Below, one piece after another: positions 7,659 through 39,913 of a DNA stretch of 39,913 nucleotides. The DNA is from an uncultured Bacteroidales bacterium (GTDB taxonomy: Bacteria; Bacteroidota; Bacteroidia; Bacteroidales; UBA4417). The notes beneath the pieces are model-generated. The model was not told where the DNA came from, made no database searches, and saw only the letters and a list, made by a program, of their open reading frames with translations. Each line of letters begins with the position of its first letter. The first letter of the stretch is position 1. The position numbers and the translations under genes were made by a program. The DNA lies in contig CAIPFN010000359.1 of assembly GCA_903864265.1 (NCBI GenBank), forward strand, positions 1-39,913, in the 5' to 3' direction.

Positions 7659-8222
7659 ATGGAAACGACAGTAACCACTGTTGCCCGTGTCAACGAAGTT
7701 GACATTCAAATCATCATGAACGGCGAAAAACAAGTTGCCGTTAAACCAATTTGCCAGGCTCTTGGCATCGCATTCGAAGCCCAATTTGTAAAGCTGAAAA
7801 CTGATCCGATTTTGAGTTCAGTTGTTATGACCAGCATAACAACTGGATCGGATAAAAAGCAGTACGAAATGGTCACCATTCCGCTTAAATTTGTTTTTGG
7901 ATGGTTGTTTCGTATCGACAGCCGCAACGTAAAACCCGAAGCCAGGGAAGTTGTGTTAAAATATCAGTTGGAATGTTACAACGCCCTTTACAACTACTTT
8001 ACCCGTCACGACGAATACCTGGAGTGGCGCGATAAGGTTATCGCCGAAAGGCTCACGCTCTATGATGCCGCCCGGTTGGAATTCCGCGACGCAAAGGATA
8101 AAGTGCAGGATGCCCGCGACCTGCTCAACGAAGCCCGCAAAATTACCGAGGAAGCTTATTTTGCAGATAAGGACCAGCTGCGTATCCAGTTTGGTGAAGA
8201 AAGCGAGGTAACCAATGCCTGA
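7659..8222 (+). CDS. ant: Phage antirepressor, P22 Ant N-terminal family
   Basis: This 187-residue protein has the P22_AR_N-type domain over about residues 10-115: VAVKPICQALGIAFEAQFVKLKTDP, then a beta hairpin, then TIPLKFVFGWLFRIDSRNVKPEAREVVLKYQLECYNALYNYF. Proteins of this kind bind and inactivate phage repressors, promoting induction. The C-terminal ~70 residues form a charged coiled coil (ERLTLYDAARLEFRDAKDKVQDARDLLNEARKI) in place of the usual second domain. A strong AAGGAG lies 8 bases before the ATG and a complex RNA structure just upstream, implying tight post-transcriptional control. It overlaps the next small gene by 8 bases. It lies about 15 kb from the repressor it would be expected to antagonise. 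Confidence 0.85.
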   Translation: METTVTTVARVNEVDIQIIMNGEKQVAVKPICQALGIAFEAQFVKLKTDPILSSVVMTSITTGSDKKQYEMVTIPLKFVFGWLFRIDSRNVKPEAREVVLKYQLECYNALYNYFTRHDEYLEWRDKVIAERLTLYDAARLEFRDAKDKVQDARDLLNEARKITEEAYFADKDQLRIQFGEESEVTNA

Positions 8223-22117: not shown

Positions 22118-22150
22118 AACGGGCTGCAGCAATGTGGCCCGTTTTATTTT
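22118..22150 (+). terminator. Rho-independent terminator of the lysis unit
   Basis: A 7-bp stem AACGGGC (22118-22124) / GCCCGTT (22137-22143) is followed by TTATTTTTT. It lies between the convergent lysis genes and integrase; the T-run overlaps the integrase stop. Confidence 0.82.
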
Positions 22151-23343
22151 TTCAGCTGGCTCAGGAACGCCGGACGGAAATCCATAACCTTCTGCGACTT
22201 TTCACCGAAATGCTGGTGAACATACCGAATCGTACTTTCGACAGAGGTATGTCCCAGGTGAGATTTTACTTCAGCGATCGTTGCTCCGCTCTCCAGGAGT
22301 TTACCCGCTCCGGTATGTTTGAAGCTGTAAAACTTATATAACTGCGATAAATTAAGCGCATCCCTGTGTGTTGCAAACCTGTTCGTAAAATGATTCTTAC
22401 CATGTGGCTCAGTACCTGGTATTCCCTTTTTCCCGAAAACATAAAAATTTCGCTGGTATCCCATGAGTTTAAAATCGTGACAAAGCTCGAGCATTGCATC
22501 CGGCATTGAAATACGCCTGGCGCCGGTCTTACCGGTATCAATCCGGATATAAATCCGCTGGTTATGAAAATCGATATCCTCTATTTTCATAAGGCGCAAT
22601 TCATTCCCGGGCCTGCAGCATAAATAAAATTCGAACAGGCTGGCCAGGAACATCTGGGGATCATTTATCGCCACATAATTAAGGAAAGTTACCATGTCTT
22701 CGTCCATAATCGGCCTGGCGGCCATATCCTTTGTCTTTTTTCCCCTGGGGAGATCTTCCATGGGAATGGTTTCAACAATCTTTTTTTTCTTGAAATACTG
22801 GAACATCATGCCCACATTCTGCCGGTATTTATTGATCGTAATGCGGTCCAGTTTGCGATCGTTCACCAGGTAGTTGAAAAAATCCTTCACCATATCGTTT
22901 GTTATTTCAAACGGCCGGATATTATTCAATCCTTTATTCTCCAGGTATTGGCAGAACAGGCGGATCTTTGAGTTATAGGACTCATAACTCTTGGGAGAAA
23001 TCTCCTGTTTTTTCTCCAGGAGAAACTGCGACATGTACTTCCGGAGATGGTTGAAGTCCTTCTTATTCGCGCCCCAGTGCGCTTTTACCTGGCCGTATTC
23101 GATCTCATCGGTATAGATGTATTTTGTTTTGTCCCATGGGCGCCAACCGCTGGTGAGCTTTCGGGTATAATATTCGATCAGCTCATCGGCATATTTTCGC
23201 TTTTCGGGATCCGGTTTATTTTTAAATCCCTTATAAACGCGAAATCGCTGCATCAATCCTTTTGGATTAAAGCAGCGATATTCAACAAACCATCCCGTAT
23301 CTCCCGATACCAAATAAGGCAAAACAACTTCGACGTTTTTCAT
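22144..23343 (-). CDS. int: Tyrosine recombinase (phage integrase)
   Basis: This 399-residue integrase catalyses attP-attB recombination for lysogeny. An N-terminal arm-binding-like part (1-100) is followed by a SAM-like core-binding domain (about 100-190) and the catalytic domain (about 205-395). Active-site residues visible: R244 (CCRPGNELR), K272 (DTGKTGARR), H365 (HLGHTS) and Y374 (IRYVH). The canonical HxxR is replaced by Y339-S-F-K342 (YSFKHTG), a variant I know from Bacteroidota phage integrases. It is convergent with the lysis genes; its 5' side holds the 18-bp repeat and putative arm sites. Confidence 0.92.
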   Translation of the reverse strand: MKNVEVVLPYLVSGDTGWFVEYRCFNPKGLMQRFRVYKGFKNKPDPEKRKYADELIEYYTRKLTSGWRPWDKTKYIYTDEIEYGQVKAHWGANKKDFNHLRKYMSQFLLEKKQEISPKSYESYNSKIRLFCQYLENKGLNNIRPFEITNDMVKDFFNYLVNDRKLDRITINKYRQNVGMMFQYFKKKKIVETIPMEDLPRGKKTKDMAARPIMDEDMVTFLNYVAINDPQMFLASLFEFYLCCRPGNELRLMKIEDIDFHNQRIYIRIDTGKTGARRISMPDAMLELCHDFKLMGYQRNFYVFGKKGIPGTEPHGKNHFTNRFATHRDALNLSQLYKFYSFKHTGAGKLLESGATIAEVKSHLGHTSVESTIRYVHQHFGEKSQKVMDFRPAFLSQLKK

Positions 23344-24104: not shown

Positions 24105-24317
24105 ATGGATTTCTCCGGAAAATTAAACTTTACAGACTATTACAAAAGCTACTCAGAATCTCAGGGTGAACTGCGCCGAAGGATATGTGACAGGCTGGAA
24201 ATAAGCTTCAAAACATTCTATAATAAAATGAATGGAAATTCATGGACAACAATAGAACTGGAAGCTATTGAAAAAATAGTAAACGATTTGAATACCGAAC
24301 TTTCAAATGCATTCTGA
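24105..24317 (+). CDS. Small Cro-like DNA-binding protein
   Basis: This 70-residue protein has the helix pattern of a small HTH regulator: GELRRRICDRLEISFKTFYNKMNGNSWTTIELEAIEKIVND. It is divergent from the XRE repressor, starts the rightward early unit, and ends two bases before the LuxR-type gene. By analogy with lambdoid switches it should oppose the repressor and favour lytic growth. This role is inferred from position; the HTH is a moderate match by eye. Confidence 0.68.
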   Translation: MDFSGKLNFTDYYKSYSESQGELRRRICDRLEISFKTFYNKMNGNSWTTIELEAIEKIVNDLNTELSNAF

Positions 24318-24318
24318 T

Positions 24319-24858
24319 ATGAGCAAAGAAATCTATTGGAACGAAACCCGGAATGTTCTTCTAACCGAAGTCATCGAAACCGCTAAAAATATGCGCCTGG
24401 ATGAATGGCCGGGTGAAGATATTCAGCGATACGATTCTGAAATTGCCAGTCAGCGGCCTAAGGTATATAAAGCCCTCTGTGAAGGGTTTGGTTATGGTCC
24501 GCAATTCGCTTTCAACAGGGTTTACCAGTTCTCGGCCTGTAATTTTTCCACGCACGACGGCCGGGCCGATATCGGTGTCGACTGGCTGTTCACGGTCGAA
24601 CGTGTGCCCTGCCCTGTGAGGCATAAATGCAGTGCCGGTTATTGCTCCAACGAAAACATGCTTTCCGTAAGGGAAACGGAGATCGTTAGATTATTCGCCC
24701 AGGGCTGTGACGAAGACTCGATAGCCGTGAAGCTTTTCATTGCGCGCTCAACCGTGCACAACCACATGACGAATATCTACCACAAATTAGGTCTGTCAGG
24801 AAATACCCATCCCGAACGCCTGTTGCTGAGCTACGCCTATTCAAACAAAATAATCTAA
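24319..24858 (+). CDS. LuxR/GerE-type HTH regulator with Cys-rich middle
   Basis: This is 179 residues from the ATG at 24319, one base after the Cro-like stop; an upstream in-frame ATG at 24307 overlaps that gene and is less likely. The C-terminal ~60 residues carry the GerE HTH pattern LSVRETEIVRLFAQGCDEDSIAVKLFIARSTVHNHMTNIYHKLGL. Before it, CPVRHKCSAGYC may bind a metal. The N-terminal half (to about 90) is an alpha/beta domain of unknown type, with no response-regulator motif. Encoded with the Cro-like gene, it may activate early or late genes. An 18-bp repeat follows its stop. Confidence 0.7.
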   Translation: MSKEIYWNETRNVLLTEVIETAKNMRLDEWPGEDIQRYDSEIASQRPKVYKALCEGFGYGPQFAFNRVYQFSACNFSTHDGRADIGVDWLFTVERVPCPVRHKCSAGYCSNENMLSVRETEIVRLFAQGCDEDSIAVKLFIARSTVHNHMTNIYHKLGLSGNTHPERLLLSYAYSNKII

Positions 24859-28197: not shown

Positions 28198-31100
28198 ATG
28201 CTGATCCCCGACGATAAAAAAGCCGAAATTCTCCAGAAATCCGATGTTTTCGATGTGCTTTCCGATTTCCTCGACCTTAAAAAATCAGGCAGCGCCTACG
28301 TGTGCGAATGTCCCATGTGCCACGCTTCCGGAAAAGGCAAAGGACTCCAGGTCACAAAGGCGAAAGGCATTTACAAATGTTTCGGCTGTGGCTTTGGCGG
28401 AAACACTGCAGTAAGTTACCTGCTCGAAGTCGAAAAAAAGAGTTACCCGGATGCGCTGAAATGGCTGGCCGATAAATACAATATCGTTATCGAGGATGGC
28501 CATCCCAAAGGACCACAACGCAAACTCAATAAAAAGCCTGAAACCTTCCGGGACAAACAGCTGAAGCTTTCCGGTATCCCGGATGCTCAGCAAAAGGCAA
28601 CCGTATGGGACGGCGATAAGCAGATTATTGTCGATACCTACGTCGCCGGTACCAGGAACGAATATTACCAGCTCGATTTCTCGAAGGAGACCGACATGAT
28701 CATCTGGTATTACAACCTCGAAGGCCGGCCGGTGATGTACCAAAAACCCAAGAGTACCAAAACCGAACACCTCTACCGGGTCCGCTGGCAGAACCCGAGC
28801 CTGCATTGCGACAAGAGCGGACGTCCGATGAAATATTCATCGCCCTACGGAAGCGGGTCGCATCTGTATATTCCCGAAATGATCAGGCAGATGTACCGCG
28901 ATAAGCGCGTGATAAAACGCCTGTACGTGCAGGAAGGCGAAAAAAAGACGGATAAGTCCTGCATGCATGGTCTGCCAAGCGTGGGCATCATGGGCATCCA
29001 CAACATCGCTTCGGAAGGGAAACTGCCTTACGAATTCCAGCAGATCATAAAGGATTGCCACGTGCAGGAAGTAATGCTCCTGCTCGATGCCGATTGTTAC
29101 GACCTGGGACAAAACCTGCTCCCGGGCGAACGCGTTGATAAGCGTCCCTACAGCTTTTTCTATGCTGTAAGGAATTTCCGGGAATACTTCAAAGCTTTCG
29201 AGAATGAAGGAATCTATCTCGAGATCTATTTCGGCCACGTGAAGCCCAACGAGAAGCACGACAAAGGCATCGACGACCTGTTGACAAATACCCTTACCGG
29301 CAGGGAAATCGCTCTCATGGATGACGTAAACCGGTCGGTGCTCATGAAGGATGGATCGGGCGAATTCGTACAGGTGCATAAGATCTCCACCATGGCCGAT
29401 CTGAAGCTTCTCGAGCTGTGGAACCTTCACAATACCGAATCGTTCGCCAGGCGTTACAAAACGGAACTTTCGGTGCTTCCTGAATTCCTGATCGGGAAAC
29501 ACAAATGGCGCTTCGACGAAAACGGGAAGCTCGAGCCGGCACAGCCGCTGCAGGAAGATGAGATCTACTTCGAAAAGATCACCAGGCGCACACGCGGCGG
29601 CGACGATTACGACACCTTCAAATTCAAATACCGGAAGTGCTATAAATTCCTCAGCCGGCGCGGTTTCGGCCGCTACGAATACGGCGGCCAGGATAAATAC
29701 ACCTGGGTGCATATCGAGAACCGGATCGTAAAGGAAATCGTTCCGCATAAAGTGCGCGATTACGTGCTCGAGTTTACCGAGGCCATCGCCGAGCAGGCCG
29801 ATATCGACGAAGTGATGGACATGTTTTTCCGCGGCTCAAAAATGTATTTGGGCCCCGACAGCCTCAGCCATCTCTCTTATGTATATCCGCATTTTGAGAC
29901 TTCTGAAAAGGATTCACAGATCATGTTTTTCCGCGATAAATACTGGATGATCACGGCCGAAGGCATTGAAGAGCATCCCATGGGCGACCTGAAGCATATG
30001 GTGTGGAAGGATAAGGTGCGGGAATTTGATGCCAGGCTCGTAGCGAAGGAATTCAACGTGGTTACGCGCATCGACGACGACTTCCTGAAGGCGAACCCGG
30101 CGAAAGCTGCAATGCTTGAGGACTACAAAGGGCAGTTTGATATCATTGCTTCCAAAGAAGCCAGGGAATGCCATTTCCAGCAGTTCCTGATCAACACCGG
30201 CGAATTCTTCTGGGATAAATTCATCGATAACAAGGAGGGCTGGAAACCAAAGCTCGAGAACGGCAAGCCGGTGGATACCCGCTCGCTGGCCGAGAAATTT
30301 GAAACAAACCTGCATTTCCTGAGCAAAACGACCGCATTCGGGTTCCTGCTGCATCATTACCGTGATAAGAGCTGCGAGAAAGCTGTGATAGGCATGGATG
30401 GCAAGATTGGCGTAGTAGGCGACTCGAACGGCCGCTCAGGGAAAAGTATTTTCGGTTTCGGCCTGGCGGAAGTCGTGCCTCAGCATGTGATCCCAGGGAA
30501 GGCCAAGGACCTGATGGAAGATAAGTTCCTCCTGGAGGGCGTTACCGAGAAAACGGAAAACATCTTCATCAACGACGTGCGCGCCAATTTCGATTTTGAA
30601 TTCCTGTTTCCGCTTATCGAGGACAAGCTCGTGATCAACGCCAAGGGCTCGCAGAAATACACCCTGCCCAAATCATCCATCCAGAAGTTCTACATTGCCA
30701 CGAACCACGCCATCAACGGCGACACCGGGTCGTACCGGGACCGGCAACACCTGATCGCCTTCAGCGATTACTACAACGAAAATCATAAGCCGGTTGATGA
30801 TTTTGGCGTAACCTTTTTCGATGCCTGGGACGACATCCAGCGCAACCTGTTTTACAATTACGCGGCCTATGCCTTGCATCTTTATTTCAAGGCCGCCAGG
30901 ATGGGTTGGGGCGTGAATGGTTCCGGTCTCATCCAGTGCCCGGTGCAGCGCCTCGAACGCCGTAAGCTGCGGCAGTTTATCGGCGAAACATTCCTCACCT
31001 GGGCCGACGAATATTACGGCGCCGGCGACGATATCCGTGAAGCCGATATCGGGCAGGATCCGGGTACCGGTCTCCCGATCACGAATTCCCATATCAACAC

Positions 31101-31323
31101 ACGCATCTTCCGGAAGGAATTATGGGACGATTTTATCGAGAACAATAAGCAGGAAAGCAAGTATATGAACGCCCATAAATTCAAGAAAAAACTCATCGCC
31201 TGGTGCAAGTTCCGCGGCCTGGCTTTCAATCCGCAGAAACAGGAATTCGACGGCATGATAAGCGACGATAAATCGGGCGGAAAGGAATTTTTTACGGTTG
31301 CAAATTCGAGGTATGCTTTATGA
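28198..31323 (+). CDS. Primase-helicase (CHC2 zinc finger, TOPRIM, SF3-like helicase)
   Basis: At 1041 residues this is the largest protein here and the core replication enzyme. The N-terminus carries a CHC2-type zinc ribbon (C38-x2-C41-H42 ... C61-x2-C64) as in DnaG primases. A TOPRIM-like core follows, with LYVQEGEKKTDK (near 242) and VMLLLDADCYD (near 295) supplying the acidic metal sites. The C-terminal third has a D5/SF3-like ATPase: Walker A GDSNGRSGKS (about 740-749), acidic ENIFINDVRANFDFEFLF as Walker B equivalent (about 786-803), sensor KFYIATNHAINGD and arginine-finger-like SYRDRQ. It would prime and unwind DNA at the origin. It is coupled to the next gene by a 4-base overlap. Confidence 0.88.
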   Translation: MLIPDDKKAEILQKSDVFDVLSDFLDLKKSGSAYVCECPMCHASGKGKGLQVTKAKGIYKCFGCGFGGNTAVSYLLEVEKKSYPDALKWLADKYNIVIEDGHPKGPQRKLNKKPETFRDKQLKLSGIPDAQQKATVWDGDKQIIVDTYVAGTRNEYYQLDFSKETDMIIWYYNLEGRPVMYQKPKSTKTEHLYRVRWQNPSLHCDKSGRPMKYSSPYGSGSHLYIPEMIRQMYRDKRVIKRLYVQEGEKKTDKSCMHGLPSVGIMGIHNIASEGKLPYEFQQIIKDCHVQEVMLLLDADCYDLGQNLLPGERVDKRPYSFFYAVRNFREYFKAFENEGIYLEIYFGHVKPNEKHDKGIDDLLTNTLTGREIALMDDVNRSVLMKDGSGEFVQVHKISTMADLKLLELWNLHNTESFARRYKTELSVLPEFLIGKHKWRFDENGKLEPAQPLQEDEIYFEKITRRTRGGDDYDTFKFKYRKCYKFLSRRGFGRYEYGGQDKYTWVHIENRIVKEIVPHKVRDYVLEFTEAIAEQADIDEVMDMFFRGSKMYLGPDSLSHLSYVYPHFETSEKDSQIMFFRDKYWMITAEGIEEHPMGDLKHMVWKDKVREFDARLVAKEFNVVTRIDDDFLKANPAKAAMLEDYKGQFDIIASKEARECHFQQFLINTGEFFWDKFIDNKEGWKPKLENGKPVDTRSLAEKFETNLHFLSKTTAFGFLLHHYRDKSCEKAVIGMDGKIGVVGDSNGRSGKSIFGFGLAEVVPQHVIPGKAKDLMEDKFLLEGVTEKTENIFINDVRANFDFEFLFPLIEDKLVINAKGSQKYTLPKSSIQKFYIATNHAINGDTGSYRDRQHLIAFSDYYNENHKPVDDFGVTFFDAWDDIQRNLFYNYAAYALHLYFKAARMGWGVNGSGLIQCPVQRLERRKLRQFIGETFLTWADEYYGAGDDIREADIGQDPGTGLPITNSHINTRIFRKELWDDFIENNKQESKYMNAHKFKKKLIAWCKFRGLAFNPQKQEFDGMISDDKSGGKEFFTVANSRYAL

Positions 31324-32009: not shown

Positions 32010-32429
32010 ATGGAAACAAAAACAGCCTATAAAGGTCCAACCCTCGGCTCACTGCTGGAAGCTCCTGCAGAACCGGTCATAACACTTCAGCAGGCCGATC
32101 CTGCGCAATGGATGTTCCATACCTTCCGCAATGCCTGGGACTGGTGCGAAGCGCTCTCAGAAGCCGACAAACAATACCTGGCCGATGTTATTTCATTCGT
32201 GAAGGATCTGCCGGAAGCTGTAACGCTTATCAGCTCCAAGGTAAAGACTGAGAACCAGGAAATCTTTTACCGCTCATGCAGCTACGCGATGATCATGTAT
32301 AGCCTGTTTAACCAGGTAACATTTAATTCGGATTACACGGCGCTGAAACGCATTCCATATCTGCCTGAGATTGCGATAGAAATCCCTGCAGGGGAATTAG
32401 TGGAGGAAAATGAAGCTATAAACAGTTAA
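32010..32429 (+). CDS. Hypothetical early protein
   Basis: This 139-residue mostly helical protein (METKTAYKGPTLGSLLEAPAEPVITLQQADPAQWMFHTFRNAWDWCEALSEADKQYLADVISFVKDLPEAVTLISSKVKTENQEIFYRSCSYAMIMYSLFN) has an unstructured Pro/Ala-rich start and an acidic C-terminus. It follows the ASCH-like gene by 3 bases. Helical pattern with aromatic residues; no family recognised. Confidence 0.48.
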   Translation: METKTAYKGPTLGSLLEAPAEPVITLQQADPAQWMFHTFRNAWDWCEALSEADKQYLADVISFVKDLPEAVTLISSKVKTENQEIFYRSCSYAMIMYSLFNQVTFNSDYTALKRIPYLPEIAIEIPAGELVEENEAINS

Positions 32430-32439
32430 TTAAGCGAAC

Positions 32440-32661
32440 ATGGCAAAGAAAAGAAGCTTACAAATCGACGTTCGGGGCCCCATGCCGGATCATGAGGATA
32501 TTATCGAAATGACTTTATCTGTCGATGGCCGCGACTGCAGGATATATACTTCCAGGGCAAATTATAAAGCGCTCATTTTTGATGGTGTATTTATTCGGGA
32601 TGGTAATGAGCGCGACAGTGCAAATATGCTGAATACGACGAATGTTTATTTAGAGCAATAA
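32440..32661 (+). CDS. Small early protein
   Basis: This 73-residue beta-rich protein (MAKKRSLQIDVRGPMPDHEDIIEMTLSVDGRDCRIYTSRANYKALIFDGVFIRDGNERDSANMLNTTNVYLEQ) has alternate strands and turns typical of a small barrel. It lies 10 bases after the previous gene. No family is recognised. Confidence 0.48.
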   Translation: MAKKRSLQIDVRGPMPDHEDIIEMTLSVDGRDCRIYTSRANYKALIFDGVFIRDGNERDSANMLNTTNVYLEQ

Positions 32662-32711
32662 TTTATATAAAATAAAGCCCTGGGCGGGCATTGTAAAACC
32701 CACAAACAAAT

Positions 32712-33020
32712 ATGGATGAAAGCTTAAATTTTGGACAGGCTGTTGAAGCCTTAAAACAGGGTAAAAGAGTATCACGACAACAATGGGAGAATGAAGATGG
32801 TATCTTCTTTATTTTCGAACAAGTACCGTCAGAGATAGGATTAGAAATTATTCCTAAAATGCAATCCCTTCCTCAATCTGTTAAAGATGAATTTGTCAAG
32901 CGAGGCGAAAGTATCCGATACTGCAATCAGTTGGCAATGGTAGATCCTGACAATACGATCACTGGTTGGGATGCCGGAGCTTCTGATATATTAGCAGAAG
33001 ATTGGTGCATACTCGACTAA
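32712..33020 (+). CDS. tad2: Tad2 anti-Thoeris protein (DUF2829 family)
   Basis: This 102-residue protein shows the family layout of DUF2829/Tad2: LNFGQAVEALKQGKRVSRQQWENEDGIFFIF at the N-terminus and IRYCNQLAMVDPDNTITGWDAGASDILAEDWCIL at the C-terminus. Tad2 proteins bind and sequester the cyclic ADP-ribose-type signal made by Thoeris ThsB, so the ThsA effector is not triggered. Between the blocks lies an insert of about 25 residues (EVPSEIGLEIIPKMQSLPQSVKDEFVKRGES region). It is the last gene of the early unit, followed by a cluster of hairpins. Family assignment is strong by eye; which Thoeris signal it binds is not readable from sequence. Confidence 0.85.
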   Translation: MDESLNFGQAVEALKQGKRVSRQQWENEDGIFFIFEQVPSEIGLEIIPKMQSLPQSVKDEFVKRGESIRYCNQLAMVDPDNTITGWDAGASDILAEDWCILD

Positions 33021-33050
33021 CCAACGATGCGACACCCGTCGCATCGTTGG
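33021..33050. terminator. Perfect 13-bp hairpin directly after tad2
   Basis: CCAACGATGCGAC (33021-33033), loop ACCC, GTCGCATCGTTGG (33038-33050). It starts at the base after the tad2 stop. No T-run follows on the + strand, so it may be an mRNA-stabilising or rho-assisted end, or a protein site. Confidence 0.6.
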
Positions 33051-33091: not shown

Positions 33092-33138
33092 AGCCCGCCC
33101 TTCGCGGGCTTTTTTAATCCTCCGCACTTTGTGCGGAG
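33092..33138. terminator. Rho-independent terminator plus adjacent hairpin
   Basis: AGCCCGC (33092-33098) / GCGGGCT (33104-33110) is followed by six T's, a standard terminator for the early unit. A second perfect stem CTCCGCAC (33120-33127) / GTGCGGAG (33131-33138) lies five bases on. With the tad2 hairpin this makes three stems in 118 bases. Confidence 0.8.
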
Positions 33139-38320: not shown

Positions 38321-39820
38321 ATGTATAATAATGAGCAGGTCACATTCAACATGGCCACCATGCCTGCACGCGTCGAAGCTTTGCAGGATACTGTTTTAAC
38401 GATCCTTCCCCAGTGTGATCTGCTCAATATTTACCTCAATAACTTCGATGAAGTGCCGGCCTTCCTGGTGCATCCGAAAATAAAAACCTTCCTGGGGAAA
38501 AAACACAAGGGAGATCTCGGAGATGTCGGGAAATTCTATAAAGTAGCGAACCAGAAAGGATACATCTTCACTGTTGACGACAAAATATTGTACCCTCCCG
38601 ATTATGTACGTAAGATGGTTCAGACCATTGAGCGCACCGGGAGAAAAGCCGCTGTTTCGAACCATGGCCATAACTTTCATACAAACAGGCCATCCAGCTC
38701 TTATTACTTTGATATCGCCAAAGCATTTCATTACCAGTCGGCCAGCGAACTGACGTTTGTGCATAATGTCGGGACCGGTGTACTGGCATTCCACAGCGAT
38801 ACGCTTATGCTGGATTTATCCTGGTTCCCGCATTCGAATATGACTGATATTTATTTCAGCCTGGAGTGCCAGAAGCGGAATATCCCGCTGGTCATCCACC
38901 CGCACGCGAAAGGATGGCTGAAGTTGGGAACCAAACACGACGAGAATTTCTCAATACACGCTTTTTGTAACAGGAAAGACGGGTTTCAGACGAAGGTAAT
39001 CAATGCTTTCTCCTGGAAGATTATAAGCTGCAAAGTAGAACCGTTATTCCCGGTCAGAATCGGATTCGAAGAAAGCCTGGAAGTACGGATAGGTGAACTG
39101 AACTGCAGCGTTTTTTCGCCTGAACTGGCCGTAATTGTGCCTGTTTTCAATAACCTGGAATTCACGCGCAAGCTTATCGAAGGTTTAAAGCAAAATACCT
39201 TTTCTCCTTATACACTTATAATCATTGATGATGCCTCCACGGATGGTACTATTGAGTATATAAGTAAGCTGAAAGCGACAGTTCCGCTTATTTACTACTA
39301 TAATGAAGTTAACAGGGGCGTTAATTATTCCTGGAACAAGGGAATCCGCATTGCCAGAAGCATAGGAGCCGAATATATGGCAATACTGAACAACGACCTG
39401 GAGTTAGCGCCCAAATGGGATCTTCCGCTTAAAAATAAGCTGGATGATGAAAACATAGGAATCGTGAGCCCTTATTCCACTTATGGCAACCAGTTACACA
39501 GGAGATTCCCCCTGGTGGGATCGGTAAACCCTTTGGGACTTGAAATTTTGGGTTGCTGTTTCATGTTCAGGAGCAGTTTGATCGATCGTATCGGTTATGT
39601 TCCTGAAGATTTACGGCATTATTATGGCGATAACTGGTTCCAGGATATCACAAAAGAGGCCGGCATGCAGGTCGTTTATGCGCCGGAAAGCCGGGTGCAT
39701 CATTATTACCAGCAAACAACTAGCAAAACGCGGCAGAATGAAATTGTAACCCACGATAAAAAGGCTTATGAAACCATACTTATGGATGGTATGGAACAGC
39801 ATATACACTTCAAAGCATGA
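38321..39820 (+). CDS. Tandem-domain glycosyltransferase in the virion operon
   Basis: This 499-residue protein has two GT-A-like domains. The N-terminal one (about 5-205) begins TFNMATMPARVEALQDTVLTILPQCD and has a DD in YIFTVDDKILYPPDY. The C-terminal one (about 260-470) is a clear family 2 glycosyltransferase: LAVIVPVFNNLEFTRKLIEGLKQNT, IIIDDASTDGTIEYI, YMAILNNDLELAPKWDLP. A predicted sugar-nucleotide site and acidic metal-binding residues are present. The target may be a virion protein, phage DNA or host surface. It overlaps terS by an ATGA across the circular join. The two-domain layout with terminase coupling is unusual for a phage enzyme. Confidence 0.8.
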   Translation: MYNNEQVTFNMATMPARVEALQDTVLTILPQCDLLNIYLNNFDEVPAFLVHPKIKTFLGKKHKGDLGDVGKFYKVANQKGYIFTVDDKILYPPDYVRKMVQTIERTGRKAAVSNHGHNFHTNRPSSSYYFDIAKAFHYQSASELTFVHNVGTGVLAFHSDTLMLDLSWFPHSNMTDIYFSLECQKRNIPLVIHPHAKGWLKLGTKHDENFSIHAFCNRKDGFQTKVINAFSWKIISCKVEPLFPVRIGFEESLEVRIGELNCSVFSPELAVIVPVFNNLEFTRKLIEGLKQNTFSPYTLIIIDDASTDGTIEYISKLKATVPLIYYYNEVNRGVNYSWNKGIRIARSIGAEYMAILNNDLELAPKWDLPLKNKLDDENIGIVSPYSTYGNQLHRRFPLVGSVNPLGLEILGCCFMFRSSLIDRIGYVPEDLRHYYGDNWFQDITKEAGMQVVYAPESRVHHYYQQTTSKTRQNEIVTHDKKAYETILMDGMEQHIHFKA

Positions 39821-39913
39821 GCCGGAAGACCAATCTGGATAAATTCGAGGCCGTAATGTTCGACGACCGCAAAGATCTTAACCATCTTACGCCTGTAGAA
39901 CAGGATCAGGTAA
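39773..39913. repeat. Terminal direct repeat, right copy
   Basis: Identical to bases 1-141. It contains the glycosyltransferase end and a second copy of the start of terS (ATG at 39817), which should not be counted as a separate gene. Confidence 0.93.

Follow-up and report, generated by a model that had tools for sequence, protein, structure and literature searches.

The 102-residue open reading frame at 32712-33020 of the window, by which we mean the whole 39,913-nucleotide stretch of contig CAIPFN010000359.1 analyzed here, raises two questions: which nucleotide signal is held by the Tad2-family protein that it encodes, and how is its expression set? The initial annotation described a protein that sequesters the signal of Thoeris. 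We consider it probable that the protein is a cyclic-dinucleotide sponge with an altered second pocket, whose expression is set by an RNA pseudoknot. Such a sponge would be a small oligomeric protein that binds the nucleotide alarm signal of the infected cell and withholds it from its effector. Tad2 itself is a known kind of protein; the new parts of the finding are the divergent pocket and the leader. The gene and the two protein segments that matter for its ligand are the following.

32712-33020, + strand: tad2-like gene, 102 aa, ATG start, an insertion-bearing Tad2 (PF11195), from Pfam, PDB sequence matches and a structural model
32784-32810, + strand: β1-β2 loop, codons 25-33, W-E-N-E-D-G-I-F-F, which is WNGKG/WNGKN in all solved Tad2s, from alignments
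32817-32920, + strand: β2-β5 insertion, codons ~36-70, with motif PKMQSLPQSVKDEF and homology to the insertion through which SptTad2 and HgmTad2 bind cyclic dinucleotides, from alignment and model

The reading frame and ATG start are as originally annotated, and the proposed membership in Tad2/DUF2829 is borne out by the profile search, in which PF11195 (Tad2-like) matches the protein with E=2.4e-15 and a score of 57.2 bits, the cut-off being 25. Every solved Tad2 is matched by sequence, namely SptTad2 (8wjd, 1.6e-18), ModTad2 (9eib, 2e-14), HgmTad2/AcrIIA7 (8kbi, 2.7e-11), and SPO1 gp34.65 (8sme, 5e-7). In agreement with this, the AlphaFold2 monomer model (mean pLDDT 91.8) has the Tad2 fold: at E<=0.001 it has 24 structural matches, every one a Tad2 chain and the best SptTad2 with cGG (8wjd, E=1.2e-10, TM 0.81). 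The core residues of the family, G17, R22, W25, W86, D92, D97, and W98, are all present, and the protein is 61-64% identical to homologues from several unrelated phages. The gene is a genuine member of an already known family, with a match far beyond chance.

The genome around the gene is that of a phage. The features that define this setting are listed below.

7659-8222: anti-repressor, identified in the window
22144-23343, - strand: tyrosine integrase, identified in the window
32010-32429, + strand: 139-aa open reading frame, an orphan with no match
32440-32661, + strand: 73-aa open reading frame, an orphan with no match, ending 15 nt upstream of the leader
33021-33050, + strand: 13-bp inverted repeat (CCAACGATGCGAC/GTCGCATCGTTGG) immediately 3' of the tad2 stop codon, read from the sequence
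33092-33115, + strand: intrinsic-terminator-like hairpin followed by a T run, from a terminator call

The first 141 bases of the contig (1-141) overlap exactly with the last 141 (39773-39913), so the contig represents a circularized genome of ~39.77 kb. These circular ends, together with the integrase, the anti-repressor, and genes for a tape measure protein, a head maturation protease, and an amidase, indicate a complete temperate phage that was placed in a host bin, and not a piece of chromosome; the temperate lifestyle is suggested by the integrase and the anti-repressor. No near-identical phage was found in GenBank. The inverted repeat and the hairpin at 33092 mark tad2 as the final gene of its operon. 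The small genes at 32010-32661 had been put forward as further anti-defense candidates by association; neither has relatives in Pfam, PHROGs, PADLOC, NCBIfam, or IMG/VR contigs, leaving position as the sole link.

Three other genes of the phage can be described. A 1041-aa replication protein (28198-31323, + strand) carries an N-terminal CHC2 primase zinc finger, and its C-terminal part is related to phrog_28855, an unknown phage family. The C terminus of a 183-aa protein (24307-24858, + strand) is a LuxR-type helix-turn-helix that matches many response regulators. A 499-aa protein (38321-39820, + strand) weakly matches GtrB-like O-antigen conversion glycosyltransferases and is possibly receptor-modifying cargo.

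The β2-β5 insertion of the protein aligns over its full length with those of SptTad2 (PNVKSLPDAVKK) and HgmTad2 (NQVKSLPESFKR). Tad2 holds two cyclic dinucleotides through this insertion, at sites separate from its gcADPR pockets (reviewed in PMC12043709), and the PDB titles record SptTad2 with cGG and AcrIIA7 (HgmTad2) with 1',2'-cADPR and cGG. SPO1 Tad2, whose aligned chain has no β2-β5 insertion, does not bind 3'3'-cGAMP (PMC11722364). Furthermore, SptTad2 is a weak trigger of Panoptes, a cyclic-dinucleotide guard system (PMC12657218). Because both gcADPR and cyclic dinucleotides are bound by homologues that carry this insertion, a CBASS-type target is at least as likely as Thoeris, and the insertion would point to capture of CBASS-type signals with at least the likelihood of an anti-Thoeris action. 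The insertion may also be conserved for folding rather than for binding. The insert of ~25 residues that had been noted between the two conserved blocks is thus real, and the idea that it affects signal specificity is sound, but this effect is already known for the family, and the insert is common to SptTad2 and HgmTad2 rather than peculiar to this phage.

Of the solved relatives, SptTad2 (8wjd, cGG) is the nearest in both sequence and fold and shares the insertion signature SLPxxVK, but it has WNGKG and ASQTD where the window protein has WENEDGI and AGASD, and it falls in a separate clade. HgmTad2, which is AcrIIA7 (8kbi/8kbj/8kbk), has the same fold and insertion, and two ligand sites have been reported for it; its loop is intact, and its identity to the window protein is about a third. 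ModTad2 (9eib, His-ADPR), with which the window protein shares family and an xSDILAEDW segment, and SPO1 Tad2 (8smf/8smg, gcADPR), also of the same family, both differ from it in having no full insertion.

In a tree of 79 rows and 96 columns, the window protein belongs to a clade of 69 rows (98 SH-aLRT, with weak support inside the clade), and both SptTad2 and HgmTad2 lie outside. Their ligands consequently need not carry over, and the window protein is best said to work like, not to be, an Spt or Hgm Tad2, since it does not group with either. The insertion motif is present in 69 of the 69 rows, a conservation inflated by the recruitment of many loci through insertion motifs. Five proteins of Bacteroidota phages or gut phages that tblastn recruited without these motifs (L050, L237, L225, L226, and L230) retain a KMQS(L/F)P or NMQSLP core. 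As the insertion is always present in this Bacteroidota-phage clade, capture of a CBASS-type cyclic dinucleotide would be its most likely conserved activity. Three near-invariant residues, Q37, Y70, and Q73, are specific to the clade and missing in Spt and Hgm, so that its ligand may differ from cGG itself.

The second pocket, which in other Tad2s receives the TIR-made signals gcADPR or His-ADPR, tells a different story. The walls of the gcADPR pocket include the β1-β2 loops of two protomers (PMC12043709). SPO1, Mod, Spt, and Hgm Tad2 carry WNGKG or WNGKN in this loop; the window protein has QWENEDGIFF, of other length and charge. In the 76 complete proteins that do not belong to the insertion-motif group, the corresponding residues occur at frequencies of 1.00 (G), 1.00 (W), 1.00 (N), 0.97 (G), and 0.91 (K). 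The change is recent, given that the closest relatives, L058 and L059 (~72% identical), retain WNGKG. WNG(K) is missing from 25 of the 69 rows of the clade and from two of the five tblastn-recruited proteins, and its state requires 15 changes on the tree, at least four of them forced by well-supported branches. Because the WNGK[GN] loop of all solved members is replaced by WENEDGI, we do not class the protein as a gcADPR-binding, anti-Thoeris Tad2. As judged from the alignments, the pocket is remodeled at its β1-β2 loop, which may have weakened, re-tuned, or abolished it. Loss of ligand-pocket residues, which the initial annotation had held to speak against its own reading, is therefore seen in part: the loop has gone from WNGKG to WENEDGI.

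An ordinary anti-Thoeris Tad2, which would sequester gcADPR or His-ADPR with a loop that merely re-tunes the pocket, is the most serious competitor, although we regard it as rather unlikely. It would account for the intact core residues and for the homology of the window protein to all Tad2s solved with TIR-made signals. The β4-α3 segment SDILAEDW also favors it, as its S-D is that of the His-ADPR binder ModTad2, unlike the QTD of SPO1, Spt, and Hgm, and a His-ADPR-type pocket is possible from this resemblance. Against it stands the gcADPR-pocket loop, whose length and charge both differ (ENEDG in place of NGKG) and which has been lost repeatedly within the clade.

A further point in its favor is that ThsB-like TIR genes are found in 4 of 15 genomes of the same genus. 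This does not extend to the earlier prediction that hosts of the phage encode Thoeris, which does not follow from the gene; no ThsB_TIR was found in the bin itself, which is 64% complete. One of the 15 genomes (G013) has a CBASS CD-NTase, with AGS_C, that adjoins a SLATT_6 2TM effector; elsewhere in this genome a SLOG gene adjoins three ThsB-like TIR genes, and a similar SLOG and ThsB cluster is present in G002. Both signal classes, TIR-made and cyclic-dinucleotide, thus appear to be available in the likely hosts. A search for prokaryotic STING, the natural cGG effector, gave no match in 198 genomes of the order, and its positive control likewise gave none.

Thoeris-like clusters occur at L338 (3029-5544) and L339 (642-4304). 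In each, an LD_cluster3 SLOG gene has two or three ThsB-like TIR genes as neighbors, and the L339 cluster contains, between these genes, a small open reading frame with an apparent membrane segment. In another genome of the same order, one short contig carries two Tad2-like domains in tandem (L218 and L221, G178:C181:1026-1708).

Of the proposed sequestering of a Thoeris signal, the assignment to Tad2 holds, but the target as stated is unsupported, the homologues with the insertion binding cyclic dinucleotides too and the β1-β2 loop being altered. On comparison with the solved relatives, a cyclic dinucleotide is a more likely ligand than had been assumed, with an altered pocket for TIR-made signals.

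We compared the upstream sequences of tad2 homologues and found an element shared by otherwise different phages, present in the window as AGCCCTGGGCGGGCATTGTAAAACCCA (32676-32702). Its parts in the window are as follows.

32677-32701, + strand: H-type pseudoknot leader, 25 nt, ending 10 nt before the tad2 ATG, from comparison of homologue upstream regions, structural scans, and covariation
32677-32680 with 32686-32689, + strand: stem S1, GCCC paired with GGGC
32682-32684 with 32699-32701, + strand: stem S2, GGG paired with CCC
32690-32698, + strand: loop L3, ATTGTAAAA

The general fold consists of S1 (GCYY/RRGC, 4 bp), a single U as L1, S2 (GGR/YCC, 3 bp), one base as L2, and L3 (NUUGUAAAA). 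An exact 21-letter pattern occurs in 26 IMG/VR stretches, each time directly 5' of an ATG, and a looser pattern in 94. A structural scan of all collected loci for both stems plus TAAAA gave 76 strong matches, 73 of which have an ATG within 4-14 nt. There are 75 distinct copies, nearly all 8-14 nt upstream of an ATG, and the genes behind them belong to 29 unrelated families of small phage genes, the largest being tad2 (18), followed by crAss001_48-like proteins (15) and a third family (8). An unbiased test used loci L001-L137, for which the Tad2 protein was the sole criterion of recruitment: of the 8 strong structural matches in these 1.94 Mb (both strands), 7 fall 8-12 nt upstream of a tad2 start codon, and the reversed sequences gave none.

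The leader precedes tad2 genes of the window clade as well as tad2 genes with Hgm-like motifs (L244, L261, and L263), and lies 5' of a DUF2829 gene in the isolate Bacteroides phage BS162P1. Most phages have one copy, and no second copy was found in the window. Among 198 bacterial genomes of the order, it occurs in only two, one of them being the present window. Leader-like elements of cultured phages include those at 801-827 of L335 (Flavobacterium phage FL-1) and at 801-832 of L336 (Bacteroides phage BK735P4), the latter less regular.

Covariation supports the leader well as a structure. Over 41 distinct sequences, 99.3% of the cells are paired, falling to 26-65% with slid partners, and four of the seven pairs are changed on both sides. 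Cells with changes on both sides number 19 versus 4.9 in shuffles, and the covariation score is 0.307 versus 0.187. Columns 9/24, which were left free in the search patterns, are G-C in 26 sequences, A-U in 13, U-A in one, and another combination in one; columns 4/12 appear as C-G, U-G, and U-A. In phage FL-1, S2 is GAG/CUC, again compensated. Compensatory changes thus support both of the interleaved helices, S1 and S2, as expected of an H-type pseudoknot.

This interleaved covariation (columns 9/24 and 4/12) is not predicted by a DNA palindrome, which makes it improbable that the element is a DNA signal such as a promoter, an operator, or a recombination site of mobile gene cassettes, even though GGGCTTTGTAAAACCC is a partial palindrome and the genes downstream are diverse. 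The tight spacing to the ATG also speaks for RNA, as does the upstream gene arrangement: a co-directional open frame ends near the leader in 62 of 74 cases, in about half of them within 25 nt. Two other candidates were rejected. An intrinsic terminator is ruled out, with no T run behind the stem and no terminator call at the site, and mere flanking homology of tad2 genes is ruled out by the 29 unrelated families that the leader precedes.

The position and orientation of the leader suggest that it acts within the mRNA. By analogy with the tisB mRNA pseudoknot, which acts in translation initiation and binds 30S and S1 (PMC7708055), the pseudoknot in this intercistronic leader may set tad2 expression as a translation-initiation element that docks on 30S, sited where the Shine-Dalgarno sequence sits in other phyla. 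We take this to be the most likely of the modes considered and put its chances near even. The start codons downstream have A at -3 in 58 of 75 cases; Bacteroidetes are without Shine-Dalgarno sequences, and A at -3 is a Kozak-like feature in this group (PMC6847099). Second comes the tentative possibility that a conserved host regulator binds the leader, while a switch responding to a small molecule is conceivable though unsupported, and we think it highly improbable. That phages mostly carry a single copy speaks against the leader being generally required for translation, and for one gene having a particular need in its expression.

The leader and the terminator also bear on whether the gene functions at all. 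The gene might instead be decaying or non-functional, or encode a structural domain that is no sponge, the loop change then reflecting relaxed selection; this would fit a loop unlike that of any relative and the occurrence of DUF2829 as a domain within longer phage proteins. We hold this to be quite improbable, as the reading frame is intact, the core residues and the insertion are all kept, identity to proteins of several unrelated phages reaches 61-64%, and the gene has its own leader and terminator. An AcrIIA7-type anti-CRISPR that inhibits Cas9 is the least probable of all and very doubtful: HgmTad2 and AcrIIA7 are the same PDB chain, AcrIIA7 contains DUF2829 (PMC6739104), and 3 of the 15 same-genus genomes have large open reading frames with a Cas9-type HNH_4, but the solved complexes of HgmTad2/AcrIIA7 contain nucleotides, the hosts of AcrIIA7 homologues span many CRISPR subtypes, with only one homologue lying alongside II-A self-targeting (PMC6739104), and no HNH_4 was found in the bin itself.

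No family of Rfam 15 matches the leader, and a literature search found no paper describing one. The preQ1-I riboswitch and the luteovirus frameshift pseudoknots are, like the leader, compact H-type pseudoknots with an A-rich third loop. The leader differs from the former in having no preQ1 core motif, as well as no Rfam match, and from the latter in not preceding a slippery site. The pseudoknots of tisB and of the rpsO translational operator also act in translation initiation, but are larger, differently positioned, and belong to bacterial genes. The pseudoknot of T4/T2 gene 32 is likewise located in a phage mRNA leader, and in 2010 was called possibly the sole viral case in translational autoregulation (PMC3014915); it is situated 67 nt upstream and is bound by the product of its own gene, whereas the leader described here lies 8-14 nt from the ATG of 29 unrelated families.

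For the joint reading, we weigh the chances for and against about equally. It holds that the leader would be an undescribed class of phage regulatory RNA, attached to roughly one small accessory gene per Bacteroidota phage, mostly tad2, and driving or gating translation without a Shine-Dalgarno sequence, and that its Tad2 clade would have shifted from Thoeris signals to cyclic-dinucleotide capture.

For the Tad2 family, the locus means that homology should not be taken to say that the host has Thoeris. The two ligand sites of Tad2 would here have been separated by evolution, providing a natural experiment on whether the insertion is by itself sufficient for a CBASS sponge. Phages FL-1 and BK735P4 are usable experimental models for the leader. 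In a phylum that lacks Shine-Dalgarno leaders, a pseudoknot locked in position before start codons offers a handle on the start and control of phage translation, and its presence could flag accessory genes, including tad2, without the aid of protein homology.
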